64,000 bases of DNA from Conchocele bisecta (taxonomy: Eukaryota > Mollusca > Bivalvia > Lucinida > Thyasiridae). Location: contig CM055265.1 of the NCBI GenBank assembly GCA_029237695.1, forward strand, positions 110,100,773 to 110,164,772. The letters run 5' to 3'. Position numbers and translations under genes: made by a program. The notes beneath the pieces are model-generated. The model saw only the letters and a program-made list of their open reading frames with translations. It did not search any database and had not been told where the DNA came from. Positions 7,477 to 61,664 of this stretch are shown here, piece by piece (position 1 is the first letter of the stretch; the number at the start of each line of letters is the position of its first letter).

Positions 7477-7720
7477 TACGGAGCCCCGCAGTTGACGTAG
7501 AATTATTTTGTTTCGTTCCCACGAAAGTTCCCACGAAATAACAATTCGTTCCCTCAATTTAACAATTGTTATATCGTGGGAACTAATTGATAATTCGAGG
7601 GAACGAATTGTTATATCGTGGGAACGAATTGTTAATTTGAGGGAATGACTTGTTAAATTTAGGGAACGAATTGTTATTTCGTGGGAACGAATTTATAAAA
7701 AAAAATCCATGTCCCCTACG
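7477..7720. mobile_element. fold-back element family A (ACAATTCGTTCCC array)
   Basis: The left end is GTACGGAGCCCCGCAGTTGAC and the right end 'aaaaaaaaatccatgtcccct'. Between them are inverted arrays of the roughly 21-bp unit AACAATTCGTTCCCACGAAAT and its complement. Other copies: 8421-8539, 39016-39484, about 39820-40124, 47577-48027 and 54460-54769. Confidence 0.8.
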
Positions 7721-30729: not shown

Positions 30730-30772
30730 ATTTAAGGCAGTGTGAATATTTCTGGTTGATTGTAGGTAAACA

Positions 30773-30895
30773 ATGAAGCTACCGAGACCGGGTTACGTGA
30801 ACACGCTGATTCGTAGAAACCTGAATGTGTTGTTGCTAAGCAACTCCGTAAACGGGATGACGAGACGGATACAGAACGAATTGCTTCATCGCCAG
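30773..30895 (+). CDS. hypX: HypX-like exon 1
   Basis: Encodes residues 1-41. The HypX-like fold starts at NVLLLSNSVNGMTRRIQNEL (18-37), matching the first beta strand and helix with which bacterial HypX begins almost at residue 1. The preceding MKLPRPGYVNTLIRRNL adds about 17 residues with four basic and no acidic residues, a possible mitochondrial presequence. The donor after CGCCAG is GTAAGC. The ATG is the first in frame. Intron 1 is 8.6 kb. Confidence 0.8.
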
Positions 30896-36800: not shown

Positions 36801-39800
36801 AACATTAACTATTTAGAGCTAGCTCCAAATGATTTAGAGAGAGCTCTTCAGATGATTTGGAGCTATCTCTAGTAGTAATTAATGCTAGCTCTAATTATTT
36901 AGAGCTAGCATTAAAGGTACATGCCCACTCAGTAGGCACAAACTATTCTTTAAATCAGGAACGTCATCTGATACATTTTCTGGCAAAATAAGCATTCATT
37001 CACCATTACCCCACGTACTGATTGGCATTATTGTACATTTTATAGCAGATGTAACTATTCACACTAAAGTCAGGGGCGATAACCGTGTTTCCTTAAAATG
37101 TTAACGGGCATTACTATTTAATATCTTTATTTATATTTTGATGTGCAACACGTTGTACCTACAGAGTAGGCATGTCTTTAATTATTTGAGTTTATGTAGA
37201 TTTGGCGTTCCTGGGGCCCGTTTCACTAAACTTCTTACGACTACAATGTTCGTAAGTGCAATATTATGATAGTCTGTACATTTCACATTAACAATGTTTT
37301 CTTGTAAACAATTATTGGATTTACATTTATTGAGCATAGGCTGCATATGCAGCCTATGCTCAATAAATGTAAACCCATCAATTGAAATTTCCAGACGATC
37401 CTACATTTGCACTTACGAACATTTTAGTCGTAGGAAGTTTAGTGAAACGGGCCCCTGGAACGCCAAATTTTCATAAACTTCAATCATTATTGCCAGCTCT
37501 AAATAATTAGAGCTGGGATTAAATAATTAGAACTAGCATTAAATAGTTAGAGCATTAAATAGTTAATTATTCGAGTTTATACAGATTTGGTCTAAAGGTT
37601 AAGTATAGTTATATTATGCCAATCACTTTGCCTCATAGTTTTCAGTAAGCTCAATCGGTAACGATCAGACAAGTGGGTTATCTCCGGGTATTCCTCCACA
37701 TTTATTCCCACCCTTACGCCCTTATGTGTACCAACGAAAGCGTTTGTATAAGTGCTTTCGCGCTTGTTTGTCATCGTTGTAGTAAATAATGTTTAAAAGG
37801 CCAAAGCCGGAATTTAAAGGCCCTGAACGGCTCAGTATTACAATTTTCCGATTTTTTCAAACACAAAAACATGCTTGGCAACTGATTTAGTACACAAAAC
37901 TAACATATACTGCCTAATAGATACATCTCAAGTCTTGAGATTTACATCTTAATCGCAATGTGAAGACAACAAAAACTTGTTTTGTGTACCACTCAGTGCA
38001 AAATGTCAATATTGACAAATTTCATTTCCGTAACCCAACGGCTTCGGCTCGGAAGCGAGTCGATGAACTCCGGCTATCGGAATTCATCGGCCGCGAATTC
38101 ATCGGCCGCGAATCGGTGAGTTGAGGATTTGACCCGAGCGTCTATCGGAAAATCGATTGGGCTTTGAAACACGCACCTGCTGTTTGTTTAGCAACAAATA
38201 TTGATATTTTCATCGAATACAAACTCATTTTTGTACCAAAATGAATGCAAACAGTTTCAACGTGTGTGTAAATAGAAACCTGTTGTATTTATGTGTGGGA
38301 AAACCCAATAGGAGGCCAAATTCGGCAACTTGAGCCGTATAGGGGCTTTAATGGATCATGTTAGAATGTGTCTAATCCTCTGCAGTATGAGACTGTGGGG
38401 TATAATAAATAAGACACATACTTATTTATTATATACCTACCCATAAACTACATAGTTATACGATGTAAATACAAGTCATTTGTTCTCATCGATGAAATAA
38501 ACAACTTTCCGGTGAAAATACGACTACTTCCGCTATCTATATTCATAACGCGCACCTGAAAGAAAACAGCTCAAATAGGCTGCAAATACACATTCATTAC
38601 CGTATACAGTCTATAAAAAAACTGCTAATTTCCATGCAGCCGTATATAATAAATAGAATATATAACGGCACGAGTGAAATATAGACATTTCACACCACGA
38701 GATGAACATATATGTCATATTCGTTGCAAAAATATGAATATCCTCTATATATTCCCCACCCTGTCTGTCTGCCCGTCCGTCTTTCCATCTATCCGTCAGT
38801 ATGTCCGCTTGTCCGACTGTCCGTGATTTGCGTTAACGTTTTCGGGTACCTACTATCTCTTTAACCTACGTCAAATGGGCTTGAAAAATTCATGTGCGTA
38901 GTTATTATCATCCATATTTTGATTATTTAGGCCACCCATGCGATATCAGTGCTCAGAGTCAAGGTCAAATGGCTAGAAACCTGTGTTAATGTTTTTGAGG
39001 GCTACATCATACATCTGCGGAGACCCGCAGGGGTCATGGATTTTTTTTATTAATTCGTTCACACGAAATAAATAAATATTCGTTCTCTCGAATTCACAAT
39101 TCGTACACACGATATAAAAATTCGTTCCCTGGAATTAACAATTCGTTCCCACGAAATGACAATTAGTTCCCACGAAATGAAAATTCGTTCCCTCAATTTA
39201 ACAATTCGTTCCCATGAATTAACAATTCGTTCCCTCAATTTAACAATTCGTTCCCACGAATTAAACAATTCGTTCCCAACAATTCGTTCCCACGAATTCA
39301 CAATTAGTTCCCAACAATTAGTTCCCGTGGGAACGAATTATTATTTCGTGGGAACGAATTGTTAAAGTGAGGGAACTAATTCTTAATTCATGCGAACGAA
39401 TTGTTAAATTGAGGGAACGAATTGTTAATTCGTGGGAACGAATTGTTATTTCGAGGGAACGAATTGTCATTGCGGGGCTCCGTATAGATCGGTGTTACTG
39501 ATTCATTGTCTCTTCCCGTTGCAGGTTACGTTTAACCAGATCGAGACGAAATGCCCACGGGAAATGGAGAGGGCCGTGTCTTCGTTCAGTCCAGACGTGA
39601 TTGTATGCCCCTATCTCACGGCGAAGATCCCTGAATCGATATATAAACATAAGAATCGCCCGTGTTTGGTCGTGCATCCGGGAATTGCAGGTACGGTGGG
39701 ACCTCACCAAACCGGACACCCTACAAGGGTGTCCGATTTGGTGATGTCCCACTGCAAGTCGGTCATTGATAGTGTGTATTGTGTAAGGACGTTACGCTCG

Positions 39801-42800
39801 ATTTTCCTACCAGCTGGGAAATGGATTTTTCTTTATTAATTCGTTTCCACGAAATAACAATTCGTTCCCTCAATTTTACAATTCGTTCCCTCGAATTAAC
39901 AATTCGTTCCCACAATATAACAATTCGTTCCCTCGAATTAACAATTCGTTCCCACGAAATGACAATTCGTTCCCTTAATTTTACAATTTTTGTTATTAAT
40001 TCGTTCCCACGAAATAACAATTCGTTCCCACTGGAACGAATTGTTATATCATGGAAACGAATTGCTATTTCGTGGGAACGAATGAATAACAAAAATAATT
40101 CTACGTCCCCTGTGGGGCTCCGTAGAGGAGAGACTTATTCACATCTTCGCTATATATTAATGTTTCGTTCGATATTCCCTGTTGACGACTTTCTGTTTGG
40201 CATTTTATATAGTATGCTCAATGTTGCTCTTGTTACAAGAATTGGCGGCTCTTGTATTCATATACGCCTGAATGAAACAATATCCAACATATTGGAATTA
40301 TGCTACAGTGGAACCTCTCTAAACAGGGCACGCTGCGAGCCCCCAGAGTGTCCGTTTAGAGGTGTTTCTCTATACAGAGCTCCAGTTAAGGTGCGTAATT
40401 TGGAGGTAAATTTCTTATTTCTCCATCAAAAATGGCAAGTTCGGAGTCCTTTAGAATCGTCTCATTGAGACGATTCTAAAGGACTCCCAACTTGCCATTT
40501 TTGATGAAGAAATAACAAAATTTCACCCCAAGTTAGTCAAATTACGCACCTTAACTGGAGCGCTGTCTATACATGTAATTACAATGAATGAGAGCTGAAG
40601 CACATGCATGCTTGTTTTGTATCATGAACACGATACACATCAGAGATATTTGACACTGAAATCGATATAGGAATGAATGGCCTTTTTGTGGAATTTATCG
40701 GGGTATAAACTTGGAAAAGTCGCGGGAATACTGGACGAAGCGATAAAAAATTACAATTTTCGAAAAAAAATCAAAAAAAAAAAAGATGTTTATTTTCCGT
40801 TTTCTTAAAAATTATTTTAACTGCGCCTCACGGTTACGGAAAGTAGTTCGGCGTGGGAGTTTACTGGGATATAAATTTTGGACAGAGACTTGCTACGAGC
40901 CAATCAAATGTTAGGGAATTGTGTAAATATTTTTGTAACGGAATTATTAATAATTTAACACATAGATGGCGCACGGGTGTCCGGCTTAGAGAGGTTCCAC
41001 TGCATCATTCATCAAATTCTGTTATTATTTGCTCTAGTTGTACTATTGTTCTAAGGGAAGTTACTCGTGGTTTCCAAGTTCAGTAACCTGATTGTAAGAC
41101 TGGTCTATACCCATCGTATGGAAGCGTCCTGGTGCCAATGCTAAAATATATTTATCTCCAAATTAGGAGATGCTAACTCCTAATTAGGAGATACTATCTC
41201 CTAATTATGACTTAGTATCTCCTAATTAGGATGTACTATCTCCTAATTAGGACGTGATATCTCATAATTAGGAGTTAGTATCTCATAATTAGGAGCTATA
41301 TATATATATATTATATATATATATATATATATAAATATATATATATAGATATATATATATATATTAGCATGTCCTAATTAGGAGATACTAACTCCTAATT
41401 AAGAGATATTAAGTCCTAATTAGGAGTTACTAAGCTCTAATTAAGAGATAGTAAGTCATCATTAGGAGATACTAGCTCCTAATTAGGATGTAATGTCTCC
41501 TAATTATAGCTTAGTATCTCCTACTTAGGAGTTAGTATCTCCTAATTAGGATATAAAACTATTTTGGCATTGGCACCAGGACGCTTCCATACCATCGTAT
41601 CTCTTCTACACGTCGACCGTTTTCATTCAGGTGACCGCGGTGCTTCTTCCATCGACTGGGCGATACATGACAGCCGCGAGCTGTGGGGTGTTACCGTATT
41701 GGCCGCCAATGACGTCATGGATGGTGGCGCCATCTAAAACGTCCATGTACGTAGGTGAAATAACTGACGCGGCCGCCGACTGCGTGATAGACTCTTTATC
41801 GCGTTTCTCACAAGGTATCCAACCAGTTCCGTTGGAATATTCGCATCCTGAGGTCACGGGGACGTTTCGCCGTAACGTAAGACATTCCGACAGGACAATT
41901 GACTGGAGGATGCCGGCGAGTGAAATACTCACTCGAGTGCGCATGTCAGACACGCAGCCTGGCGCCATTGGGAAATTCGGAGCGAATGGGTTGACACTGC
42001 GCATGTTTGATGCGTATTTAGAGACGGGACTGCGCATGAGTGACGGCAATAGGGCATCGCTATCATCGACAAAACCAGGGGCAATGTTGGGACACAAGAA
42101 TGGGGCGATATTGATGAAGGCTGGAGACGAACATGGGGTGTGGATTGGGCAACTCAAACTTGTAAGTGTGTTGTTTCATCGGGGAGATGCATGTATAGGT
42201 AATATTCCGCACGATTATCGCAATGCGATGCATTTTCATTGAAAATATGAATATCCTCTATTACGTTATTTAGACCTTCTATAAATTCATAATGCAAACG
42301 CCCATTCGACGTATTGCGTTTACATCCCAATACAATACAACTCGCTTATTGGCATTAAACAGCAAAAAGCACATTTATAGCCATATAACAAACATGTATG
42401 ATGGTTTCAATACAATACAATACAATACATTAGACCTACGTGATGTCGCGCCATGTTGTTTATTGGTTAAAGTTCGCAACGTCGCTGTTCCAGGAATTGC
42501 GACAACATGACGTAAAACAAGATTATTGTTAATTTTAACGCCATATTTGGTTATTTACAGTTTTGAAATTATCAGAAATTGCAGTGTAAATATAAGTAAT
42601 AAAACCATGTGCTGCTGCGTTTACCGGAGAGAACAATACATTTGGTCCGTTTAAAGTTTGCGAGGAGTCCTTCGGACACCACGCACTTCAAACAGACCAA
42701 ATGTATTTGACACCCTAGTAAACGCAACAGCCCATAGTTTTATTCCTTAAATGCATTAAATTTACTGAATTCAGAATACCAGAGATCCGGCTGTCAAACT

Positions 42801-45800
42801 ACCCGCTGCACCGTTCCTCCAGAATATGAACTATCATCTCGCTGCCGAGTTCTCGTCTGAATGTGACTTTGATGACATCCGGGTCGTGCAGCATGGTAGA
42901 GTGTGTTACGTACATTTTGACTTTTACAACGGCGCCATGAACAAATATCAGGCCACCCGTCTAACGAACGCCTTAAAGACGGTGGCATCACGTGAAGACG
43001 CAGACGTTGTTGTGTTAATGGGCGGAGAAAGATTCTTTTCTACAGGTACGTACGAGGTACATAAAAGGGGCATATCAGGATTTTTTGAAAAAATACTATG
43101 AAAAATAAAGTATGTGTTTTCATCATGGCCCTGAGTAAAGTGGTTTAATATAGGAATGAATGGCCTTTTTGTGGAATTTATCGGGGATATAAACTTGGAA
43201 AAGTCGCGGGAATACTGGACGAGGCCTTCCGGCCGCCAGTAGAATATATATTTGTTTTTATTAGCATATGACTATATACCTGACAGCATCTATGGTTAGT
43301 GTAGATCCTGATCATCCCGTGTGTTCATAAAGAAGAATTATTATAATTCCAGCATTTGAAATAAATTCATCAAGAAAATGTGTTTATTTTCCGTTTTCTT
43401 AAGAATTATTTTAACTGCGCCTGACGGTTACGGAAAGTAGTTCGGCATGGAGTTTACTGAGATATAAATTCTGGACAGAGACTTGCTACGGACCAATCAA
43501 ATGTTAGGGAATAGTGTAAATATTTTTGAGCTGGAATTATTTGAAGATATGTGACAATACTAGGACCGCTGGGTTTTTCACCGATATCGGTACATAAGTA
43601 TCAGATTTATATCTTGTTGACCTGTGGCTATTTTATTTTCCGAGAAAACATTTAATTCTACTTGTGTGTAGTGTTCGCGATTTATTTTCTGATAGTTATG
43701 CATATTATACAATTATTAACTTTTGAGGAGATTTACGGTCATATTCACCGAGGCCGAAGGACGAGGTGAATATGACTTTTCGAAGGTCAGTAAATTTTAT
43801 TATAGTATACATATTACAGCAATGACAACTTATATGATACAACGTACGAATTTCCCCATGCTTTGATTGCGTGATTGCAGATGCTGATACACCTGAATAT
43901 CAGTCTCGGACTCGTCTCGTTGCGCGAGAAGTGTCCGAGAGTGTTATTCGAAATATGATGTTCACCTGGAATATCATATATGTCCGCAATCATGTGACTC
44001 TCAATCTCATTCAGTTGGCTGGACGTCTCAGTCATATAATAATACTTATTAGCCAGACCATCGCAGGACTGAAAATATACCCTTCGGAATATTTACACCA
44101 GAATTGGCGACTGACGGTGTCATTATAAAGGATTGCTAATTCAAACGTCTTAGCTCACGTGATGCAGATCGCATGAACGGACACGTTCAGATAATAACTC
44201 ACATGATTTCTATTTTATTTCATATTATAGTTGGCTATGCCTTGTTCAAAACCTCCTTCCCATAATGTATCATTCACACTTGGGACAAGACATGTGGTTT
44301 TGTACCTAAGACGATGTGCGACATCTCATGAATTTAAAGGTACATGCCCACTCAGTACGCACAACATGTTCTTTATAAGAATTAAATAAGTGTATAATTG
44401 TGTCACTATTCCACAAGTTATAAAACTGACGAGTGCCCGCTATACAGATATAATCATTTAGTAATGTTTATTTTACTGATAGTGACGCGCGGTGGTATCA
44501 GGCTATTTTCATATGCAAATGGGGTATGATATTTTTTAATTATTTATACTAATTAAATATGTCACCTGAAAAAATAACATTTTCGACAGATTATAAAGTA
44601 TGATCATTGTACATCAAAAAATAAATACGGATAATAAATAGTAATGGCCGTTAACATTTTAACGAAACACGGTTATCGGCCCTGATATCAGTGTGGAAAT
44701 TTACATCTGATATAAACTGTATAATATTGCCAATCAATACGTGGGATAATGGTGAATGAACGTTTATTTTGCCAGAATATGTCTCAGATGATGTCTCTAA
44801 TATAAAGAACAGATTGTGCCTACTGGGTGGGCATGTACCTTTAATTTACAAAATGTACGATATTTTCTAGAAATGATGTCGGAAGTTAACATAATATTCA
44901 AATCAAATGCTGTTGCTATGAAAATTTCGTCAACTTTCGACTTCATGTACATAAAATATCACATTTTATGTAAATAATTTTCTTGAAAACTCGCACATTT
45001 TCTTAGGTACAAAATCACATGGCTTGTCTTATATGTTAACCCTTTGAACCCGAAAGCCCGCAGTAGCGGTGTTTGCAAACAGTGTAGATCCAGATGAGCC
45101 GTCTCGTAACGAGCCGTCTCACCAGCATCTGCACTTTTTGCAAGAAATTTTCATTTTTTTAGAGCAAAAAACACCCCCTTTTCATAAATGGACTAGTCTG
45201 AAAAGCATCTTGTGACGATTGGATTGGTTGCAAATTGAACATATCAAAATGGATTCCAGTTATACTTAGGAGATAAATGGTTAATACATGTCGACCACTT
45301 ACGCGAATGTATATACGAGGATGGGTCAATAAGTAGTGTCACATGGTACCTAACTTTAAATCATAGGGTATGTCTAAAACTACACTTATCGTTCTATATT
45401 CCGCCAGGATAGTCTCTCGTGGGGTCTGTGACAGAATATTCCCGTTGTCGCCGTGCAGCAATATTCGTTGCTAAACAACCGGCGTTGATACATTGCACAC
45501 TTGCGATCAAGTGTGACTCAAATAATGGAATATAACTATGTTTGTGTAGTTTTTATCTGACGAATAGGCAGGATATGGTAGAACGTCATAATCTCGCACG
45601 CACACAACACGTCATTTTGTAAAGTTATGAGTCCCACGTCCAGTTCTTTTAGGCCCTGTAGAGCCGACTATTGTTCATCGACGACTATCGTTCACGTGTA
45701 TAATTAAGTCGGGGAAAATAACTTAGCCATTTCTGAAGCCATTTCACCTTTACTGTGCGTCGTTGAACAACTTAGACAATTTTAAGAAACTTCACTACCG

Positions 45801-48800
45801 GTGAACATTAGTCGTCGACAATAGTCGTTGATGTTAGAGCCGACTATTGTTCATCGACGACTATCGTTCACGTGTATATAATTAAGCCGGGGAAAATGGA
45901 AAGTTATTTTCCCCGGCTTAATCATACACGTGAACGATAGTCGTCGATGAACAATAGTCGGCTCTACAAGGCCCTTTTTGGAGAGCTTGTGCTTTACAGC
46001 TTGAAATAAAAATGTGTGATATTCTTTGTTGATTGCTTTACAGTTTTAACTCAACGAAGTATAATTACACAATCGGAATCGTACGAAAATTGTGTCAGAA
46101 GTATATATTTTTCATGTTTCTGCCAGAATTTTACTTGTCAGTGAGGCTTCAAATCGTCGCATTCCTTAGACTGGCTTGTTAATTCCGTTTTGTAACTACA
46201 TATTTATGCATTTCATTGACCTCGATGAAATACACGAGGGTGTCTTCTTCATTACGATGTATTCCAGTGGTGAGTTTGACATAAATCATAGGAGGATACC
46301 TTAAAGGCCCAACAATCGGTGCCCTGGTACCGAATTTAGAAGGAGGGGCATATCCAATTACTGATAGCGTCCCTAGCCTGTCAGTTGTACACTGGCTTTA
46401 TAAATAGAACACATAAACAGCAGCACATGTTTGTCGTCTGCTCCAATGTAGAACAGTGAGGGGGCTGCTGGATAGCCAGTGTAGGTGTTTCTGTACTGAC
46501 CAGTATCTAGATATATGGTATGTAGGCTTGTTATCAAGTTTGTGTCCCATAAAACACACAAATGATACAATGTATACCAGTCCCTCTAATAGTATTTGTA
46601 TGTTTTATTTGTGCATGAAAATGATTGAGCATTTACTCAGTGTTAAAAATTATATAGTATTTTGTGTCCGTTTAATGATTGTAGGAAACAGACAACCAAT
46701 TGATTTCCCATAGACCCACATTCACACAAACATGACAATCGCAAACTACCTGCGACAAAATCAATTTTGTTACTTCCATTCCTGGAGTCAGTGACCTAAG
46801 CCGGTTCTAGATCCATGCCAAACACGGGGTCATGCGGGTTGATTTCCATGAGTTATTTCCCTTTTTTTGACGAAACCGTCTACTTTCACTTTCGAAATCT
46901 CTATCTCACCCCCACATCAAGTCGCACACAGAAAAAATTTAACCTGCATGTGTAGAGCATGCAAATAATATAATACAATGTTTGGCACAGACATACCTTT
47001 CCTGCAGCATCTATTTTATTTATCTATCTGTCATAATAATAACAATCAATGCCGTTGTCCTGAGAATTTACTCCTTGTTGCTAAGCTGTACCAGGACTGG
47101 TTTACCATCTATATTATTCATAAGTTGACTGTGTCCTGTATGACCTGTCAGCTGAACTTAACCGGAATATTCATGATGATAGTATTACGTTCTATTGTCA
47201 AAATAGTTGACATACATGTGTAATGGAGCTTGAAGGGCAATGTACACAGAAAGGACACTGACCTACATTTGCTATTAAACTCATTACATATTTAAATAAA
47301 CGTATTTTGGAATGAATAACAAAACAAATCACCCTCCCAAATTATTTTATTTGATGAATTCCATCATAACAATATATTTGGTTGTGAAAAAAAGTAGTTT
47401 AACCATGGGGTAAACGGGAACAACGAAGATGGTCAAAAACGAAAATAAATGGAAAGTGACTCCGAAACCTGGCTAGACAGTTTGGAAAATGATGTAACAA
47501 AGTAAACAAAAATCAGATTTTGCAAAACGGTCAACAAATTCCAAAATTATTTTTATTTCAGCCCCATGTTAATATCTACGGAGCCCCACAGTGGATTTTT
47601 TTTATTAATTCGTTCCCACGGAGTGGCAATTCGTTCCCTCAATTTAACAATTCGTTCCCGCGTATTAACAATTCGTTCCCTCGTATTAACAATTCGATCC
47701 CACGATGTAACAATTCGTTCCTTTGAATTAACAATTCGTTCCCACGAAATGACAATTCGTTCTCTCGAATTAACAATTCGTTCCCACGAAATGGCAATTC
47801 GTTCCCTCAATTTAACAATTCGTTCCTTCGAATTAACAAGTCGTTCCCACGATATAACAATTCGTTCCCGTGGGAACGAATTGTTATTTCGTTGGAACGA
47901 TTTGTTAAATTGAGGGAACGAATTGTTAATTCGTGGGAACGAATTGCTAAATTGAGGGAACGAATTCTTATTTTGTGGGAACGAATTAATAAAACAAAGA
48001 ATTCTGCGTCTCCTGCGGGGTTCCGTAAATATCGAATATATCCAATGAAATAAACTCAATAATCAGACGTCAGTAAAATCTATTTTATTCATAGATTCCA
48101 ATGACTTAACTACGGAAGCCCATTAGGGCCACTTCACTTTTTTTTAATTTCCATTTATTCAAGATGTTTTCTTGAATTTTCAAGTTATTTTCTTGAATTT
48201 TCAAGATCTTTTCTTGAATTTTCAAGATCTTTTCTTGATTATTTTCTTGAAATTTCAAGATCTTTTCTTGAATTTAAGATCTTTTCTTGAATTTTCAAGA
48301 TCTTTTCTTGAATTTTCAATTTTCAAGATATTTTCTTGAATTTTCAAGATCTTTTCTTGAATTTTCAAGAAAAGATCTTGAAAATTCAAGAAAAGATCTC
48401 GATATAAAGCAACAGCAGACGACAATTGTTGTGTGTAGCGGTCTAATGGTTAAAGAGAGCGAAGCACGATTATATTGATAGTACTACAATATACGAGACA
48501 CGACATGTAATTTTCGTACCTAGTAGCATGTGCGAATTTTGATGAAAATTATTTACAGAAACTGTTATTTTTTATGTAAATGACCTCGAAAGTTGACGAA
48601 ATTTTCATAGCAAATGCGTATTTATATTTTTTAAAAAACCACGGTTATTTCCTAAACTAAACTCCTCCAAAGATTATATCTATTAAATAGCAAACGTTCC
48701 TCTGAGAGATGACAAAAACTACGATACAAATGTATTTTAGTTGTCTAGAAAGAACTGACCAATCAGATGCACTGATTTTATGAGATTTAATAACATATTG

Positions 48801-51800
48801 TTCCATAAATGAACACATTTTAAACTAAAACTGGATTGACACGAGTGAAAATGTGTTTCTTATATAATAATGTTGATTCCAATATGTATCTCTCGGTGTC
48901 CACTAATGTGCACGTGCACTTTTTGTTCCTTAACCCTTTCCCTTGTTTTGCGATATTTCGACTCATCCAAATCGAAAACATCTGAATAAAAGAACCAAAT
49001 GCTGGGTCAAATGATGGTTAAATTATCTGATAGAGTAGAAAACATTGTGGGAAAAGGAGAAATTGCTTGTTACAAGCAATTTCTCCTTTTCCCACACTGT
49101 TTTCAAAATACATCTTCTGCAGAGGCGTGAAAAGTCGTCTCTATCAGGGAAAGGATTAAGAGCACGGAAATATGTGAGAACAGGAAATACAATTATCAAC
49201 ATGAGCGACTGTACAACCGTTCAATATGCGAATTAAATGAAAGATCAAACAAACAGTTGCTTTTTAAATCACAGTCTATATTTCACAGTACAGTGAAACC
49301 TCTCTAAACCGGACACCAAGTAAACACATGTGATATTAGTTTTGATATGTTTCTTGGTCATTTTTCGCAGGTGATAATACCTGTTCATGATCGCATAGCA
49401 GACAACTACAAGTATGGCTCAGAATTGTCAAATTGTCAAATGACCGTAATACACTGGAACATATCTAAACCGGACATCCTGTGGACCTCCCAGGGTGTCC
49501 GGTTTAGAGAGGCTTCGCTGTACAACTTAAATGTGGCGATGACTGGAGAAATTAGGTTTATTGGTTTTGCGACCAGTGTAGATCCAGATCCGCACAATCT
49601 GTAGCCTATTTCATCAACATTGCAAAGTATACTTTACTAGCAAAGTATACTTTGAGGGAGTAATCATTAATTTTTCCTGAAATGCATTATTTCATATAGA
49701 ACTAACAAATGCATATATTTCAGGATTATAAGTATGCAGAATTATTATACTGAATTTATGACATTATCACAGCCAAATTGGCTGTGATAATGTAATAAAT
49801 TCAGTATAATAACAATTAATAAATTTATCATAAAATTGAAAATTTCTCCCTCAAAGTATACTTTGCTACTAAAGTATACTTTGCAATGTTGGTGAAATAG
49901 ACTACTGATCTGTAGCCTATTTATTTCATCAACATTGCAAAGTATACTGTACTAGCAAAGTATACTTTGAGGAGTAATCATTTATTTTCCTGAAATGCAT
50001 TATTTCATATAGAACTAACAAATGCATATATGTCATGATTAAAAGTATGCAGAATTATTATACTGAATTTATTACATTATCACAGCCATTAAATGGCTTT
50101 GATAATGTAATAAATTCAGTATAATAAAAATTAATAAATTTAAAAAAAAAAAAAAAATTTCTCCCTCAAAGTATACTTTGCTACTAAAGTATACTTTGCA
50201 ATGTTGATGAAATAGGCTACAGGCTCTGCACTGTTCGCTATTCCATCAATGAAACACACGTCCTGCTTTGCAATGTTGGTGAAATAGACTACTGATCTGT
50301 AGCCTATTTCATCAACATTGCAAAGTATACTTTACTAGCAAAGTATACTTTGAGGGAGTAATCATTTATTTTTCCTGAAATGCATTATTTCATATAGAAC
50401 TAACAAATGCATATATGTCATGATTAAAAGTATGCAGAATTATTATACTGAATTTATTACATTATCACAGCCATTAAATGGCTGTGATAATGTAATAAAT
50501 TCAGTATAATAAAAATTAATAAATTTTTAAAATAAATGAAAATTTCTCCCTCAAAGTATACTTTGCTACTAAAGTATACTTTGCAATGTTGATGAAATAG
50601 GCTACAGGCTCTGCACTGTTTGCTATTCCATCAATGAAACACACGTCCTGCTTCTAACAAGTAATCGATCGTTATCCGACTACAGGAGTGAGTTATTTGA
50701 CCAGGAGTTACACTGGTTACAAATCCCACAAGCCCCATTTCTCCAGGCACAGCCACATATAAGACACGCCATGTGATTTTGTACATTCGGGCATCTGCGT
50801 AATTTTATGAAATACGTTTACACAATTTATAATATGTTCCGTAAATGGCGTCAAAAGTTGACAAAAGTTGACATTTTATGAAAAATATTGTAAATAAAAC
50901 ACAAAAACAATAAAACTCAAAGGAAACAACTAGGAAAACGCTGACACAGGATTATGCTACAAAGTGCACATTAGTTCACGACGTCATGGACGAGTGTACT
51001 ATGAAACAGTGAACTATATAACCATTATTCTTATTTTACCTACAGTGTCGGCGTATCAATTATAAGGCGTTAATTCAAATATCCACGAAATGTTTTCTTG
51101 TGCGTGACAGGTATCCATCTGAACTGCATCGAAGCAAGTCGTGACACGTTCACAGAAGCGTTTGAAAATATCAACAAGATTAATGACGTCATCCATGCCA
51201 TCTCCGCCATGACGGACAAGCTGACGGTCGCTGCGTTACAGGGAAACGCCGGTGCTGGTGGCGCGATTCTGGCGGCCGCATGTGACGTAGTTGTTGCGCA
51301 CCCGGTACATATGGCATCACTATATTTTCGCAGTAAATCGTGTATTCACTTTTAAATGCAATATGTACACTCATATATTTTATATACACATGATACATAT
51401 ATATTGACATTGTATGCTGTATATGATGTATTGGAAAGCAGTATTTTAGAGATATATATAGAGTGAGTAAATCATTGTTAACCCTTTCAACACCAAGTAA
51501 CTTAATAGGATGTTCCATGCCAATGTTTCACGCTATTTCATTAATTTGGTTCATTCAAATTATCCCATTCTTCTAAAAGGGTAATCTGTACGACGTTTAA
51601 AATTATTAACAAACAGTGGAGATCCTGATGAGACGGCTCGTTACGAGCCGGCTCATCTGGATCTGCACTGTTTGCAAACATTGTCTCTATAGAGGTCTGT
51701 GGTGTAGAAAGGGTTAATGCGTTAGTGCTCATGCTTTAACACTCAAACTGTCGGATTTCGAGTTAGAATAGGTAGAACATATTCATGAAATAATATAGAC

Positions 51801-54430
51801 ACAAGTGTATTATACATATACACGATTACTCGAATCTCTGATGTTCTAAATAATGAAGTTTGATTTGCCGAGCTTGAGATGCTCAATCTCGGCCAATCAA
51901 ACTGGCTGATTTTGAGTACGAATTTGAAGAACAGGTTTAAAAAGTAAATTTCATAAACGCTGGCCCAGGTCGTCTGACTATATCACATTTAAGCATGTAG
52001 TCGAATCCTTGATGTTTGAAATCAGGATAGTTGATAGTCGAATATGAGGTGTGAAAAATAACTGCAAAAGACTCACATATCGTCGGTTATTTTGTCAGAT
52101 ATGTCCTACGATGTATAAGGAATATGTGATTTAATGCTGAACACGCTGATAATTCCAGCACAAAATATGTACACAATTCCCTAGCATTTGATTGGCCAAT
52201 GTAAACAAATGGCTGCCGTCTGTCAAAATAAACAAATTTTCTTGATGAATTTATTTCAAATGCTGGAATTAATATAAGGAATAAATGGCCTTTTTGTGGA
52301 ATTTATCGGGGATATAAACTTGGAAAAGTCGCGGGAATACTGGACGAGGCCTTCCGGCCTTCGTCCAGTATTCCAGCGACTTTTCCAAGTTTATACCCCG
52401 ATAAATTCCTCATAAAGGCCATTCATTCCTATAATAATTCTTCTTTATGAACACACGGGATGATCAGGATCTACACTAACCATATATGCTGTCAGGTATA
52501 TAGTCATATGGTAATAAAAACAAATATATATTCAACTGGCGGCCCAAATGTTAGTATGTACCGTAAATACCGTATTATCCCGTCAACACAGTGCGTATGG
52601 CCGTGAAACACGGTGCCGTGAAACATGTTTGATATCCTGTCAATACGACATAATCACTGCGTATGAATATGTGCGGTGACTGGGGTTATTTTTTTGCATT
52701 TAAAAGCCATGTGTAGGTGATGTTAACGGGATAAATAGAATAGTAGGTTAGTGCCGTGAATGGGGAAAATATCTGGCGCGGCACGGAAACGGGATGTGCT
52801 CGGCATAGCCTCGCCCATCCCGTTTCCTAAGCCTTGCCATATATTTTTTCCCATTCACGGCACTAACCTACTATTCTCCATCTATTTTCCTTATTTCTGA
52901 ACCAAAGTATATGTTGTGACCACTCATTTCAACCGTCTCGGCGAGACGGTTCAAATGGTGGTCACGACATATACTTCTGATGAGAAATAAAGAAATGATT
53001 GAGCCTTGCCATATATTTTTTCCCATTCACGGCACTAACCTACTATTCTCTATTTGAATGTCTATGCAGGGTGTGTTCCTAACGCCAACATACAAAGCCA
53101 TGAATTTATTTGGATCTGAATATTGGACATACTTCTTGCCGCGGAGGGTTGGCAAGGCGACGGCAGAAAAGCTAACAAGGAGCACAGACACGATATCCGC
53201 GGAACACGCTAAACAGATCGGACTGGTGGACAGTGTTGTTGGAACGTATGTAATTTCGTTTCCGTTATCATATAATTATGGAAATAACTCTGATCAAATA
53301 TGGTTCACAAAACTGAAGCACAACATCCGACCGCTGGTGGCAAATATAATGTCCCTAATAATATAATAATATATGTTATATAATTATGTAATTAACTTAC
53401 AATTTTAGCTATTCAAGTAAAGCCTGGTGAATACTTTTCTAGCAAAGTATACTTTGAGGGAGTAATCATTTATTTTTCCTGAAATGCATTATTTCACATA
53501 AAACTAACAACTGCATATATTTGATGATTACAAGTATGCAGAATTATTATACTGAATTTATTACATTACATGTATAACAGCCATGTTTGCTGTGATAATG
53601 TAATCAATTCAGCATAATAAAAATAAATAATGTTATCCTTAAATTAAAAATTTCTCCCTCAAAGTATACTTTGCTAGAAAAGTATACTTTGCAATGTTGG
53701 TGAAATATGCTACTGGTCCAGAGATGACTGATAATCGTTTCGCGAAGTGATATAAGAGTTGGCGCTGGTAGTTAATAATATAAACACATTTTCTTCCTGT
53801 ACACATACAGCGTATAGTGATTCAATTCAAATCCATCATACAATTGACAGTATGGTACATACTTATCATTGTACTATCATATCGATGGTCTAGTAACATA
53901 AGGTCGTAAGTGCTATGCTTTAGCATAGCTCTTACGACCTTATGTTACTAGACCATCGATATTTATTTGTACATTTCGCATTTCCTATAACCATTTCGTC
54001 AACTTTAGATGCCATTTACAGAAACCATGAGTTTCTTTAAAAGAAAATCATAAAAATAGCACATCTTCTTAGGTACAAAGTCACATGGCTTGATTCAAAT
54101 GTGTTTGACTATATTTTACTCATCGCATGAATGGTCCTTCCATGGTTTCGTCCTCATTGTATTTGTACTCTTTCCAGGAGCAAAGCGGCCTTCCAACAGG
54201 TAGTTCCTGCAGTTGTAATGGACCTTCTCGACAATGGCAAGGCGGCCGAATGCATCAAGCAAAAGACGACGGAGCGCGATGCCGATTGGTTCAGAACGCT
54301 GCAGAGACACCGGGATACTGAATTGACACATATGAGAGCTAATTTTACATCAGATGCGTTCCGCATGGCGATGAAGCGATTTGTGTATAAACTGGACGAT
54401 GATGAGGCGATAACATCGGTATCTTCCTAA
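30773..54430 (+). CDS. hypX: HypX/HoxX-like formyltransferase-crotonase fusion gene, seven exons
   Basis: Join 30773-30895, 39525-39690, 41631-42161, 42775-43045, 51111-51304, 53070-53245 and 54178-54430. All six introns are GT-AG and their phases (0,1,0,1,0,2) are consistent across every junction. The product is about 570 residues, typical for bacterial HypX. Residues about 18-273 form the N10-formyl-THF formyltransferase half (VVHPGIAGDRG 90-100, MDGGAI 126-131). Residues about 290-490 form the crotonase-like half (FDFYNGAM 321-328, LMGG 354-357, NAGAGG 409-414, GSEYWTYFLPRRVG 443-456), and a helical tail contains RHRDTELTHMRANF. Bacterial HypX moves formyl from N10-formyl-THF to CoA and releases CO for the [NiFe]-hydrogenase active site; the role in an animal is unknown. 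The family call is strong. Exon 3 contains a frame break, so this copy may be a pseudogene, a variant allele or an assembly error. Confidence 0.88.
30980..31057. repeat. hairpin (TAGATATTGGCGAAAGCGTCG arms)
   Basis: TAGATATTGGCGAAAGCGTC pairs with GACGCTTTCGCCAATATCTA around 'gcaatatgcgattagcatattgc'. It lies 90 bp into intron 1. Confidence 0.8.
31268..31325. repeat. hairpin (GTTCACATATTGAATTTTTAA arms)
   Basis: GTTCACATATTGAATTTTTA pairs with TAAAAATTCAATATGTGAAC around 'ataaactaattta', in intron 1. Confidence 0.8.
31577..31649. mobile_element. pogo/Tigger-like MITE, about 70 bp
   Basis: TACAGTAAAACCTCTCTAAA, then CCGGACACCCTGGGAGG, mirrored by GGGTGTCCGGCTTAGAGAGG and TTTCACTGTA. CAGTG-type ends with a TA on each side and the CTCT-TAAACCGGAC motif match the pogo/Tigger branch of Tc1/mariner (family knowledge). 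Other copies: 31765-31793 (end), 39694-39754, 40313-40374, 40976-41004 (end), 49289-49316 (end), 49450-49522, 57580-57650 and 57720-57791. Confidence 0.8.
32072..32703. mobile_element. TTAA-type MITE copies (one partial, one nearly full)
   Basis: A 5' end at 32072 (GAAGGTACATGCCCACTC) is soon lost. A second start at 32243 (AAAGGTATATGCCCACTC) runs through the standard interior to GGGCATGCACCTTTAA near 32703. Confidence 0.7.
32737..33003. mobile_element. hairpin MITE plus TATCCCGTCAACAC MITE pair
   Basis: The AGTAGGTTAGTGCCGTGAAT palindrome (about 32742-32880) abuts a TTTATCCCGTCAACAC element (about 32882-33003). This is the arrangement at 2842-3113 in opposite orientation. Confidence 0.75.
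33190..34110. repeat. inverted pair with nested hairpins in intron 1
   Basis: 33190-33400 and 33850-34110 are inverted copies. Each centres on a palindrome of the type 'gcgaagaatcgatttccgtg' / 'cacggaaatcgattcttcgc', flanked by 'tgcatttggtggtccaggga' and 'catatttcatcaaaatccgt'. The space between has its own hairpin 'atttaatattatcgaagacaatcttcgataatattaaat' (in parts, 33641-33680). Confidence 0.7.
35050..35340. mobile_element. repeat family H copy
   Basis: 'ggaatgaatggcctttttgtgg', 'gtcgtgggaatactggacgaag', then 'cgcctcacggttacggaaagtag' and 'caatcaaatgttagggaattgtg'. Related to 11668-11950. Confidence 0.65.
35385..35450 (+). mobile_element. possible tRNA-derived SINE fragment
   Basis: 'agatcagatggtagagcgctcgg' resembles the D-arm and A-box region of a tRNA. 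No matching B-box or acceptor stem follows, so it is at most a relic. Confidence 0.35.
35534..35617. mobile_element. perfect-palindrome MITE, about 84 bp
   Basis: ATATCGATGGTCTAGTAACA pairs with TGTTACTAGACCATCGATAT, and 'taaggtcgtaagtgctatgc' is likewise mirrored. A second copy is at 53879-53962. Confidence 0.85.
35664..35880. mobile_element. MITE with TTAACCCTTAGACCG termini
   Basis: TTAACCCTTAGACCGCTACT at the left, AGCGGTCTAAGGGTTAA at the right, with 'gacaattgttgtcagta..'-type inner pairs and a centre 'gaaatgatttc'. Confidence 0.75.
36130..36190. repeat. short hairpin (TTGTTTACACGAATA arms)
   Basis: TTGTTTACACGAATA pairs with TATTCGTGTAAACAA around 'cacatctcggccaggtccgagagtgc'. Confidence 0.65.
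36340..36475. repeat. hairpin with a duplicated inner arm
   Basis: 'ttttacgtttacaaatatgacatttta' is mirrored by 'aaatgtcatatttgtaaacgtaaaa'. The inner 'ttgtggttttcaatcgcctgaaa' arm pairs with two successive copies of 'caggcgattgaaaaccacaataaaatg'. Confidence 0.75.
36740..37214. mobile_element. fold-back element family E (AGAGCTAGC array)
   Basis: TGGAACGCCAAATCTACATT at the left is mirrored by 'taaactcaaataatt'-side GTAGATTTGGCGTTCC near 37190-37213. Inside is an array of palindromic words around GCTAGCTCTAAATAATTAGAGCTAGC. A TTAA-type MITE portion (about 36913-37180) is inserted in the array. Confidence 0.7.
37213..37455. mobile_element. hairpin MITE with GGGGCCCGTTTCACTAAA termini
   Basis: GGGGCCCGTTTCACTAAAC to GTTTAGTGAAACGGGCCCC with apex 'gctgcatatgcagc'. 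It sits exactly between two outward-facing family E termini (GGCGTTCC and TGGAACGCC). Confidence 0.85.
37456..37592. mobile_element. fold-back family E, second partial copy
   Basis: TGGAACGCCAAATTTTCATAA then 'ctctaaataattagagctggg' and 'taattagaactagcatt' repeats, ending 'cgagtttatacagatttgg'. Confidence 0.6.
37813..38352. mobile_element. MITE with TTAAAGGCCCTGAACGGCTC termini
   Basis: TTAAAGGCCCTGAACGGCTC at the left is mirrored by GAGCCGTATAGGGGCTTTAA at the right, about 540 bp. The terminal TTAA again suggests TTAA-targeted insertion. The GC-rich middle has 'gaattcatcggccgc' in direct repeat. Confidence 0.7.
39016..39484. mobile_element. fold-back family A in intron 1, ends 40 bp before exon 2
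   Basis: Left end 'tgcggagacccgcaggggtcatggatttttttt', right end 'gcggggctccgta'. Arms are about 20 units of ACAATTCGTTCCC(A/T)CGAATTA and its complement meeting near 39325. Confidence 0.85.
39525..39690 (+). CDS. hypX: HypX-like exon 2
   Basis: Residues 42-96 plus the first base of G97. Acceptor 'cttcccgttgcag', donor GTACGG. SFSPDVIVCPYLTAKIP is the second strand and PCLVVHPGIA carries His92, the position of the catalytic His of formyltransferases (family knowledge). A fold-back element ends 40 bp upstream, and a pogo-like MITE begins 3 bp after the donor GT. Confidence 0.85.
39694..39754. mobile_element. pogo-like MITE abutting the exon 2 splice donor
   Basis: CGGTGGGACCTCACCAAACC, GGACACCCT, then the mirror AGGGTGTCCGATTTGGTGA, TGTCCCACTG. 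The TA at 39692-39693 is the left target duplication; its T is also the T of the intron's GT. Confidence 0.8.
39820..40124. mobile_element. fold-back family A in intron 2
   Basis: Arms of ACAATTCGTTCCC units meet near 40030, and the right end is 'ctacgtcccctgtggggctccgta'. The left terminus is degraded. Confidence 0.75.
40313..40374. mobile_element. pogo-like MITE, diverged
   Basis: TACAGTGGAACCTCTCTAAAC on the left, GTCCGTTTAGAGGTG..TTTCTCTATA on the right. Confidence 0.65.
40380..40561. mobile_element. long hairpin (CTCCAGTTAAGGTGCGTAATTT arms)
   Basis: CTCCAGTTAAGGTGCGTAAT pairs with ATTACGCACCTTAACTGGAG. The apex is AATCGTCTCATTGAGACGATT, with about 80-bp arms and one small interruption. 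Confidence 0.85.
40668..40955. mobile_element. repeat family H copy
   Basis: Same order of motifs as 35050-35340, from 'ggaatgaatggcc' to 'caatcaaatgttagggaattgtg', followed by a pogo-like MITE end at 40976-41004. Confidence 0.7.
41116..41592. mobile_element. fold-back element family D (CTCCTAATTAGGAG array), ends 38 bp before exon 3
   Basis: TATGGAAGCGTCCTGGTGCC, AATGC at the left is mirrored by GCATTGGCACCAGGACGCTTCCATA at the right. The core is about 20 copies of a 20-bp unit built on the palindrome CTCCTAATTAGGAG, with an (AT)n tract at 41297-41360. 'ccatcgtat' flanks both sides and is a possible target duplication. Confidence 0.85.
41631..42161 (+). CDS. hypX: HypX-like exon 3, with internal frame break
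   Basis: Opens phase 1 after 'ttttcattcag'. The first frame gives GDRGASSIDWAI and ELWGVTVLAANDVMDGGAI, then meets TAA at 41735. From 41736 a frame shifted by one base resumes at KTSMYVGEITDAAADCVIDS and runs cleanly through RHSDRTIDWRMPASEIL and HKNGAILMKAG to GVWIGQLKL, ending at a GTAAGT donor. Bacterial HypX has roughly a dozen more residues (the W-A-x-x-x-F-P segment) exactly at the break. A deletion of 3n-1 bp at ATCT/AAA would explain both. The rest of the exon is free of other lesions. Confidence 0.8.
42286..42750. mobile_element. diverged copy of the promoter-proximal MITE, intron 3
   Basis: 'taatgcaaacgcccattcgacgtattgcg', 'gcgacaacatgacgtaaaaca' and 'aacgccatatttggttattta' match the 30217-30729 element. 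The inner hairpin 'acatttggtccgttt' / 'aaacagaccaaatgt' closes it. Confidence 0.6.
42775..43045 (+). CDS. hypX: HypX-like exon 4 (start of crotonase half)
   Basis: Residues 274-363 plus one base of G364. Acceptor 'gaattcag', donor GTACGT. It contains the inter-domain linker (DPAVKLPAAP) and the HypX-specific start of the crotonase fold: CDFDDIRVVQHGRVCYVHFD, FYNGAM, then ADVVVLMGGERFFSTG, which corresponds to the first oxyanion-hole loop of crotonases. Confidence 0.87.
43150..43540. mobile_element. repeat family H copy, intron 4
   Basis: 'ggaatgaatggcctttttgtgg', 'gaggccttccggccgccagt', then 'cgcctgacggttacggaaagtag' and 'caatcaaatgttagggaat'. Confidence 0.65.
44334..44844. mobile_element. 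TTAA-type MITE, complete 511-bp copy
   Basis: TTAAAGGTACATGCCCACTC to GGGCATGTACCTTTAA. Interior landmarks are 'ttccaca(c)agtt', 'gacgcgcggtggtatcagg', 'cacggttatcggccctgatatcagtgtgg' and 'ctcagatgatgtctc'. Other copies or parts: 1524, 3193, 3411, 24965, 32243, 36913, 57197 (duplicated 5' part) and 62570-62800. Confidence 0.85.
45035..45285. mobile_element. MITE with TTAACCCTTTGAACCCGAAAG end
   Basis: Same family as 19927-20176; it has the 'gtagatccagatgagccgt' / 'ctcaccagcatctgcac' hairpin. Confidence 0.7.
45651..45976. mobile_element. inverted-repeat MITE (AGAGCCGACTATTGTTCATCG arms)
   Basis: AGAGCCGACTATTGTTCATC appears directly at 45661 and 45836 and inverted at 45940-45965 (ATGAACAATAGTCGGCTCT), with 'ccccggcttaat' inner arms. 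The left copy is part of a partial duplication of the arm. Confidence 0.75.
45980..47570. other. intron 4 sequence, no gene recognised
   Basis: Minus-strand 46373-46570 has a compositionally protein-like stretch (GQYRNTYTGYPAAPSLFYIG) but no known domain or splice borders. The rest is unassigned. Confidence 0.35.
47577..48027. mobile_element. fold-back family A in intron 4
   Basis: TACGGAGCCCCACAGTGG to CTGCGGGGTTCCGTA, with arms of about 12 and 6 ACAATTCGTTCCC units meeting near 47870. Confidence 0.85.
48110..48400. mobile_element. fold-back family B, right-truncated
   Basis: CTACGGAAGCCCATTAGGGCC then about 12 units of AAGATCTTTTCTTGAATTTTC. It turns over at about 48366 and is cut short by a piece of the TTAACCCTTAGACCG MITE. 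Confidence 0.8.
49035..49110. repeat. hairpin (TGTGGGAAAAGGAGAAATTGC arms)
   Basis: GTGGGAAAAGGAGAAATTGC pairs with GCAATTTCTCCTTTTCCCAC around 'ttgttaca'. Confidence 0.8.
49450..49522. mobile_element. pogo-like MITE
   Basis: TACACTGGAACATATCTAAAC to GTTTAGAGAGGCTTCGCTGTA. A lone end of the same family is at 49289-49316. Confidence 0.7.
49601..49907. mobile_element. hairpin MITE family P, first of three in a row
   Basis: GTAGCCTATTTCATCAACATT to 'ggtgaaatagactactga'. Confidence 0.85.
49880..50653. repeat. 387-bp tandem duplication containing family P hairpins
   Basis: The block from 'tttgcaatgttggtgaaatagactactgatctg' through one family P hairpin to 'gaaacacacgtcctgct' occurs at 49880-50266 and again at 50267-50653, nearly identical. 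The hairpins themselves are at 49911-50220 and 50298-50605. Confidence 0.85.
51111..51304 (+). CDS. hypX: HypX-like exon 5 (oxyanion-hole region)
   Basis: Residues 365-428, acceptor 'gtgcgtgacag', donor GTACAT. GIHLNCIEA continues the strand broken by intron 4. INDVIHAI is a helix and LTVAALQGNAGAGGAILAAA is the classic second oxyanion-hole/CoA-binding helix start (NAGAGG). Intron 4 before it is 8.06 kb and holds three family P hairpin MITEs. Confidence 0.88.
51478..51717. mobile_element. MITE with TTAACCCTTTCAACACCAAG end
   Basis: Contains the hairpin 'agatcctgatgagacggctcg' / 'cgagccggctcatctggatct' and ends 'gaaagggttaa'. Confidence 0.7.
52140..52440. mobile_element. family H arm forming a long hairpin
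   Basis: From about 52280, 'aatggcctttttgtggaatttatcggggatataaacttgg' is mirrored at 52380-52430 ('ccaagtttataccccgataaattcctcataaaggccatt') around 'gaggccttccggccttcgtc'. Confidence 0.75.
52573..53053. mobile_element. TATCCCGTCAACAC MITE plus hairpin MITE, followed by a half hairpin
   Basis: TTATCCCGTCAACACAGTGC (52573) to GTTAACGGGATAAA (52735), the AGTAGGTTAGTGCCG palindrome (52742-52880), a short 'gaccactcattt'-type hairpin (52917-52970), then a lone right arm of the palindrome (53003-53053) just upstream of exon 6. Confidence 0.75.
53070..53245 (+). CDS. hypX: HypX-like exon 6 (GSEYWTYFLPRRVG)
   Basis: Residues 429-486 plus two bases of T487. Acceptor 'gtctatgcag', donor GTATGT. GVFLTPTYKAMNLFGSEYWT and YFLPRRVG form the most diagnostic HypX block, distinguishing it from ordinary enoyl-CoA hydratases. 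It is followed by AEHAKQIGLVDSVVG. A half copy of the AGTAGGTTAGTGCCG hairpin MITE ends about 15 bp before the acceptor. Confidence 0.9.
53430..53712. mobile_element. hairpin MITE family P, intron 6
   Basis: Its left edge is slightly truncated (starts at 'acttttctagcaaagtatac'). The apex is diverged ('cattacatgtataacagccatgtttgctgtg'). Confidence 0.75.
53879..53962. mobile_element. perfect-palindrome MITE, second copy
   Basis: ATATCGATGGTCTAGTAACA to TGTTACTAGACCATCGATAT; nearly identical to 35534-35617. Confidence 0.85.
54178..54430 (+). CDS. hypX: HypX-like exon 7 and stop
   Basis: Phase 2 acceptor 'tactctttccag'. Residues 488-570 end in DDDEAITSVSS with TAA at 54428-54430. This is the helical C-terminal tail (AVVMDLLDNGKAAECIKQK, DWFRTLQRHRDTELTHMR, AMKRFVYKL). 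A family A fold-back element begins 29 bp after the stop. A variant polyadenylation hexamer ATTAAA sits inside it at about 54747; no AATAAA is nearer than about 55525. Confidence 0.85.
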
Positions 54431-54459: not shown

Positions 54460-54769
54460 TATGGAGCCCCGCAGTGGGTGTAGAATTCTTGTTTGTATTA
54501 ATTCGTTCCCACGAAATAACAATTCGTTCCCACGAAATAACAATCGTTCCCTCAATTTAACCTACGCAATAACAATTGTTATATCGTGGGAACGAATTGT
54601 TAATTCAAGGGAACGAATTGTTAAATTGAGGGAACGAATTGTCATTTCGAGGGAACGAATTGTTATATCGTTGAAATTAATTGTTCATTCGAGGGAACGA
54701 ATGGTTAAATTGAGGGAACGAATTGTTATTTCGTGGGAATGAATTAATTAAAAAAAATCCATGTCCGTA
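54460..54769. mobile_element. fold-back family A just after the HypX-like stop codon
   Basis: TATGGAGCCCCGCAGTGG to 'tccatgtccgta', with a short left arm and long right arm of ACAATTCGTTCCC units. If the gene is transcribed, its 3' UTR must run into this element. Confidence 0.8.
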
Positions 54770-61106: not shown

Positions 61107-61664
61107 AGAAGGACTACCATTGGTCAGAAACTGCACTGGAGAAATGGGTCACGGTCGCCGATCTACACATTCAATGTCGATGATTCATTTCTCATTCTGC
61201 CGATGATTCATTTCTCATTCTGCCATTTTGCTTCAACTATCTCCAAACAGTCAAACGTTGACAAACCCATTCGTATTTAAACTCATTTGCGTTATAATTG
61301 TACACATAATTCATGTACATGTAGATCTCCCGCGAGTACAGACCTCATTTATTGTGTATCGCAAGGTACACCTGCCCCAGTTAAATCAATAATACACGCG
61401 CTGTGACCTGTGTTCTGACTGCTGTCTGTGTTTATAAACAGAATGTGTGTATTGGGCCATTTGAGGAAACCATTTGTAGTATTTGTGTAGATACCATGGA
61501 TACTAAGATGGTGTATACTGTAAATAATGCATGTAGACACATAGTTGCGAACACGTAACTTCGCAACTAGTAGACACAGATACAATACCATTTGTTTCAC
61601 AAGGTTAGATCTACTGTTAGAATACGACGTCATCTAATGTCATTTTCGAGCATAAAACGTTACC

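Follow-up and report, generated by a model that had tools for sequence, protein, structure and literature searches.

The window, that is, the whole stretch of 64,000 nucleotides analysed here (C1:110100773-110164772, within the 1.89-Gb assembly of Conchocele bisecta), contains a HypX-like gene of seven exons on the + strand, with all six introns bounded by GT and AG. Its features are as follows, in window positions.

Exon 1, 30773..30895, + strand: ATG start and first formyltransferase strand; GT donor; tblastn against the Mactra orthologue 1e-6
Exon 2, 39525..39690, + strand: formyltransferase with HPG motif (His74 equivalent); GT-AG; tblastn 6e-17; same length as exon 2 of the C12 paralogue
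Exon 3, 41631..42161, + strand: Asp80 and Asp109 equivalents and the C-terminal subdomain of folate transfer; carries the lesion; GT-AG; tblastn 5e-49
Frame break within exon 3, 41732..41737, + strand: roughly 38 nt missing by comparison with the C12 paralogue; in-frame TAA at 41735-41737
Exon 4, 42775..43045, + strand: linker, and the first part of the crotonase domain; GT-AG; tblastn 4e-23
Exon 5, 51111..51304, + strand: crotonase core; GT-AG; tblastn 2e-12; same length as exon 6 of the C12 paralogue
Exon 6, 53070..53245, + strand: Tyr416 and Glu426 equivalents, GSEYWTYFLPRRVG; GT-AG; tblastn 1e-20
Exon 7, 54178..54430, + strand: C-terminal helices and stop codon; AG acceptor; tblastn 1e-13

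The choice of ATG is supported by an in-frame TAA at 30767-30769, immediately 5' of exon 1. The joined product scores above the cut-offs of PF00551, PF02911 and PF00378, and thus carries the N- and C-terminal formyltransferase domains and a crotonase domain in one chain. It matches Aquifex aeolicus HypX in the PDB with an E value of 5e-88 over query residues 16-550 and a Mercenaria protein annotated as 'HoxX-like' with an E value of 2e-175 (50% identity, 98% coverage); judged by sequence similarity, these matches lie well past chance. The 12 top protein matches are all from bivalves (Mercenaria, Sinanodonta, Pinctada, Mya, Potamilus and Mactra) at 48-51% identity, followed by the brachiopod Lingula at rank 13, the bivalve Dreissena at rank 14 and the nemertean Tubulanus at rank 17. 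A preliminary description of the window had claimed seven spliced GT-AG exons encoding a formyltransferase/crotonase fusion with the HypX motif set. The exons and their splice sites agree with this account, the three domains and the GSEYWTYFLPRRVG block are present, and the best matches are full-length HypX or 'HoxX-like' proteins, not plain enoyl-CoA hydratases. Its further claim that the exons assemble compatibly stands for the exons and their splice sites, which are real, but not for the joined frame, which at 1714 nt (3n+1) is interrupted by the TAA in exon 3. No further HypX copy was detected in the 64-kb window, where the remaining tblastn matches have E values of at least 0.067, and neither the tRNA scan nor the Rfam scan gave a match in it.

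Several other features lie within the window. Arrays of a 21/42-base unit resembling GGGAACGAATTGTTAATTCG occur in both orientations at 39078-40031, 47607-47987, 54574-54745 and 7564-7693, recurring in the introns of the HypX gene and just 3' of it. A 38-base tandem repeat of approximately 31 copies occupies 4564-5724, frames resembling by eye the reverse transcriptase of a non-LTR element lie on the - strand at 58697-61123, and two further open frames (249 and 187 residues) are located outside the HypX gene on the + strand at 22054-24290.

At the site of the frame break all 21 homologues printed alongside (20 from animals, and A. aeolicus) have at least a dozen residues, and a paralogue in the same genome, on contig C12, has 12 more residues than the window copy. 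We considered a 31-nt GT...AG mini-intron at this position, which would restore the phase, yet it is implausibly short for an intron and its excision would cost the domain further residues. The C12 paralogue has nine exons and is open over 601 residues, although its splice sites were picked by a script favouring resemblance to known proteins and its single exon boundaries are therefore provisional. Exon sizes in the window and C12 copies are 123/129, 166/166, 271/274, 194/194 and 176/176; the C12 gene possesses one extra intron in the region of window exon 3 and another in the region of exon 7. The two copies share 60.7% of residues over 570 codons and differ at 171, 130 and 340 sites in first, second and third codon positions respectively, with pN of 0.26 and a pS of 0.755 that is saturated, so that dS is not estimable. 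This pattern across codon positions, together with pN/pS, argues for a long period of constraint on the window copy.

It is rather probable that the window gene is now a functionless pseudogene and that only the C12 copy matters, as suggested by the break in exon 3 and by the intact paralogue. On the other side, the lesion is the only one across 571 codons, and the deletion may be young, or an allele, or an assembly error; in any case a pseudogene would bear on the window copy alone and not on the HypX family. Since the window copy is frame-broken, the working gene in Conchocele bisecta is more likely the C12 paralogue, to which we would provisionally assign the HypX function on sequence grounds.

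Both copies reside on contigs of host scale (C1, more than 110 Mb; C12, 88 Mb). Bacterial contamination, against which the preliminary description had argued from the spliced structure, was ruled out by these contigs, by the spliced paralogue with its matching exon sizes and by the animal clade in the trees described below.

In bacteria, HypX converts N10-formyl-THF via formyl-CoA to CO (PMC12134894). The residues proposed to carry out this chemistry were taken from the structure of A. aeolicus HypX (PMC6802093) and mapped onto 193 homologues. All five (the equivalents of His74, Asp80, Asp109, Tyr416 and Glu426) are present in the window copy, in 17 of 17 bivalve entries, in nine of nine entries from plants, algae and protists, and in 22 of the 24 entries from other animals, the two exceptions being fragments without one end. 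Across the 193 homologues the His is conserved in 192, the Asp80 position in 192, the Asp109 position in 193, the Tyr in 184 and the Glu in 190, with Thr replacing Tyr416 in six. Substitutions of the Tyr and of the Glu are reported to abolish the function of Ralstonia eutropha HypX (PMC6802093); the equivalents of both are found in all 17 bivalve entries and in 23 of the 24 other animal entries, with a gap in the one remaining. The CoA-binding positions are more variable. In place of the diphosphate contacts R9, Q15 and R131 the window copy has S, R and V, although these contacts are described as not crucial for CoA binding (PMC6802093). Of the residues touching the 3'-phosphate, the window copy retains Asn306 and Gln195 and has Thr for Ser194; Gln occupies the Gln195 position in seven of the 17 bivalve entries.

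The predicted fold of the Mercenaria orthologue, obtained together with 47 relatives, has a pLDDT of 91. Its top matches among the PDB entries listed are eight HypX chains (TM 0.79-0.82 by query, E values from 4e-56 to 1e-53), the best being 6j0p (TM 0.82/0.88, rmsd 2.7), and these are followed by ArnA at 1e-17 and, from that value on, by FMT, FDH and crotonases. This bivalve orthologue, as distinct from the window copy, is thus predicted to share the A. aeolicus HypX fold over both domains.

Phylogenetic analysis of 86 hand-chosen sequences (LG+F+R5, SH-aLRT/UFBoot, midpoint root) placed bivalves, Lingula, Tubulanus, Owenia, Branchiostoma, Trichoplax, corals, Nematostella, Hydra and their kin in one clade (99.9/100). 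This core animal clade, together with 12 other sequences (algal, protist and others, mostly fused to FolD), is split from all bacteria (99.4/100). A second tree, built under a site-mixture model with a quick search and a midpoint root, again recovered the 26 core animal sequences, split from the rest by one branch (98), and placed 45 sequences together beyond another (97), now including moss, Chara, a tardigrade, a fungus gnat and one further protist, with 38 bacterial or bacterial-like sequences, two bdelloid rotifers and the flatworm Macrostomum opposite. The attachment of the moss, tardigrade and gnat group differs between the two models. In the site-mixture tree the window protein groups with those of Mercenaria, Mactra, Mya and Dreissena (SH-aLRT 95), which points to a bivalve host, probably heterodont.

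As the core animal clade appears in both trees, HypX was most likely present early in animals, with the core clade ancestral by this sequence evidence. Of the two origins offered in the preliminary description, an old transfer or ancestral retention, the trees bear out the age of the gene, and retention suits the core clade better than a late transfer. Four animal groups place outside this clade: the bdelloid and Macrostomum proteins appear to have separate histories, as perhaps do those of the tardigrade and gnat. The matches listed (the best 120 of each search) included no HypX of vertebrates or of most insects. Five further proteins (P0062, P0079, P0122, P0123 and P0124) are 58-71% like Hydra HypX and may represent HypX of other hydrozoans. 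Many of the animal proteins are labelled 'hydrogenase maturation factor HoxX-like' in databases, and we found no account of animal HypX among the listings of open-licence PMC papers.

Clues to the donor and product come from relatives of the animal proteins. Fusions of HypX to FolD, which produces N10-formyl-THF, are found in Ascophyllum, Chrysoparadoxa, Togula, several protist transcripts, bdelloid rotifers, Macrostomum and Chloroflexi, and this arrangement makes it very probable, on sequence grounds, that the folate donor is likewise N10-formyl-THF. We also inspected 82 bacterial hypX loci, comprising 80 of the at least 556 confirmed in one scan of genome contigs and two from plasmids. In 41 of them the fetched stretch contains matches to HypB, HypD, HypE, HypF or a hydrogenase subunit and in the other 41 it does not; as the stretches are between 3 and 29 kb long, these genomes could still encode a hydrogenase elsewhere. 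Genes encoding MHYT domains adjoin hypX at five of the 41 loci without hydrogenase genes (L003, 10004-14159; L005, 1107-5323; L012, 381-6026; L038, 167-2719; L039, 9146-11722) versus none of the 41 with them. These neighbours lie 39 to 988 bases from hypX on the same strand, encode MHYT-PAS-GGDEF-EAL, MHYT alone or MHYT-PAS-kinase proteins, and are drawn from approximately three bacterial lineages. Each of the five genomes has just one or two MHYT genes, which makes chance adjacency unlikely, although the pattern was spotted post hoc. The MHYT domain of CoxC is described as a copper-dependent CO sensor (PMC11347149), and we read the adjacency of MHYT genes to hypX as support for continued CO formation by HypX that has no part in hydrogenase maturation. 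It is possible by analogy that the two genes form a pair of CO maker and CO sensor in these bacteria.

MHYT is also the commonest neighbour family at the hydrogenase-free loci, at four of the 79 neighbour proteins scanned (out of 144 listed; the MHYT protein of L012, among the other 65, was scanned separately). These 79 proteins revealed no single neighbourhood shared by hydrogenase-free bacterial HypX, and we found no partner common to the remaining 36 of the 41 loci. Nor were more MHYT-HypX pairs found in the order of Peribacillus, where HypX occurs in one of 397 genomes, that of Peribacillus itself. On a Mycetohabitans plasmid (L002, 10001-16696) hypX is followed by genes for an acyltransferase, an acyl carrier protein, an acyl-CoA dehydrogenase, an amino acid-[ACP] ligase and a DUF1839 protein, in a stretch that lacks hydrogenase genes, and in a member of the Bacteroidetes (L004, 10013-13255) a serine dehydratase gene (PF03313) is located 3' of hypX.

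On balance we think it probable that animal HypX is a hydrogenase-free CO synthase that converts N10-formyl-THF through formyl-CoA to CO. The window gene would then be one of two bivalve representatives of an old animal family, uncoupled from hydrogenase and akin to the HypX of other eukaryotes and of bacteria. The gene structure, family, residues, predicted fold of the orthologue, phylogeny and confinement of HypD and hydrogenase matches to a bacterial-looking contig (see below) are supported directly, and we infer CO release in animals, together with its mitochondrial location and physiological use. The N-terminal domain would remove the formyl group from N10-formyl-THF and move it onto bound CoA by means of the His74, Asp80 and Asp109 equivalents, and the crotonase half would decarbonylate formyl-CoA by means of the Tyr416 and Glu426 equivalents, yielding CO. 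In Conchocele bisecta the intact C12 paralogue would do this job, the window copy having its frame-breaking deletion. In many animals the enzyme is probably mitochondrial and would be supplied with one-carbon units derived from serine. At least 30 residues precede the conserved start in 15 of 25 core animal sequences, versus two residues in seven bacterial HypX entries; the first 30 residues of the extension contain 5-8 Lys/Arg and 0-2 Asp/Glu, so that it looks like a mitochondrial targeting sequence. The extension is absent from the other 10 and from both copies of this genome.

An alternative that we judge unlikely, but which deserves weight, is that the animal enzyme stops at formyl-CoA or breaks it down by hydrolysis to formate, having little or no decarbonylating activity, and would serve as an overflow valve for mitochondrial folate or as a formyl donor. 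Retention of the formyl-transfer residues and the variable CoA-binding positions of bivalves are consistent with such a role, but the two residues associated with decarbonylation, at the Tyr416 and Glu426 positions, occur in every animal entry that covers them, and the bacterial MHYT neighbours point to CO.

The case for a CO synthase uncoupled from hydrogenase also draws on a profile search of the whole assembly, which gave one match to HypD and three to the [NiFe] large subunit (PF00374), all on contig C895 and none on any other contig; the same searches gave matches in five and four, respectively, of 14 control genomes. C895 comprises 2,164,887 bases, with HypD at C895:633477-634523 and, in the stretch L097 3229-8300, frames that resemble a bidirectional [NiFe]-hydrogenase operon (by eye and from one PF00374 match), on which basis we take the contig to be bacterial. 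It may derive from a bacterial associate of the bivalve. A role in making CO or formyl-CoA without hydrogenase fits both the retained catalytic residues and the restriction of these matches to C895. We consider it very unlikely that both bivalve genes still serve a hydrogenase by supplying host CO to a bacterial partner: in favour of this idea, C895 appears to encode the hydrogenase operon and HypD and its sole match to HypX is a distant formyltransferase (27% over residues 88-329), but both HypX genes lie on host contigs and the gene is retained in animals from Hydra through to Branchiostoma. It is more improbable still that the gene encodes an enoyl-CoA hydratase of the ordinary kind, joined to an upstream domain by chance, since, although many hydratase models match the C-terminal half, none of the best 25 of 69 NCBIfam families exceeds its cut-off (the top score being 79.7 bits against 300), the formyltransferase half is present, and the PDB match to HypX (5e-88) far surpasses that to the best hydratase (8e-12).

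The animal proteins resemble HypX/HoxX of [NiFe]-hydrogenase maturation (A. aeolicus 6J0P; Cupriavidus necator pHG1) in their two-domain layout, five catalytic residues and predicted fold, but differ in that the gene is spliced, that no HypD or hydrogenase match occurs on host contigs, that the CoA-diphosphate contacts are changed and that an N-terminal extension is often present. Bacterial HypX proteins with no hydrogenase gene in the fetched stretch, including those with MHYT neighbours, belong to the same family but are not the closest kin of animal HypX in the trees. The HypX half of the fusions in Ascophyllum, Chrysoparadoxa and Togula is akin to animal HypX, whereas FolD domains are absent from the core animal proteins listed. 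A related N10-formyl-THF formyltransferase domain occurs in 10-formyltetrahydrofolate dehydrogenase (ALDH1L; PDB match 9e-10), which bears carrier and aldehyde dehydrogenase domains where HypX has its crotonase half.

Heme oxygenase is the usual source of CO in animals. The CO of siphonophore floats derives from serine, and to our knowledge no enzyme has been assigned to it. Wittenberg, as cited in PMC6820529, reportedly studied where the CO of the Physalia float comes from and the folic acid derivatives of the gas gland. Secretion of CO by siphonophore gas glands is documented (PMC6820529, PMC3916360), and Hydra, a hydrozoan like Physalia, encodes HypX with all five catalytic residues. By analogy animal HypX is a candidate enzyme for float CO; the main texts of one siphonophore genome paper and one zooid-expression paper make no mention of hydrogenase, formyl, gas gland or folate. 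Bulbs of the kelp Nereocystis are likewise rich in CO (PMC9601103), and the brown alga Ascophyllum possesses HypX in the FolD-fused form. A broader reading, which we offer tentatively and regard as rather doubtful, is that HypX is a heme-independent CO synthase ancestral to animals, hydrogenase-free and often mitochondrial, that converts serine-derived N10-formyl-THF to CO; that it is the missing enzyme of siphonophore floats; that its FolD-fused form is the source of CO in brown algal kelp bulbs; and that hypX with MHYT constitutes a module of CO signal and receptor in bacteria. If this were true, dedicated CO synthesis would be older and wider than heme oxygenase.

Given the intact C12 copy and relatives from corals to lancelets, some animals may have an undescribed route to CO. 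The occurrence of HypX in cnidarians, Trichoplax, lancelets and spiralians would mean that a dedicated folate-to-CO route exists in animals, and the origin of CO in siphonophore floats becomes testable through HypX. For the animals that possess the gene, the database label 'hydrogenase maturation factor' misleads.
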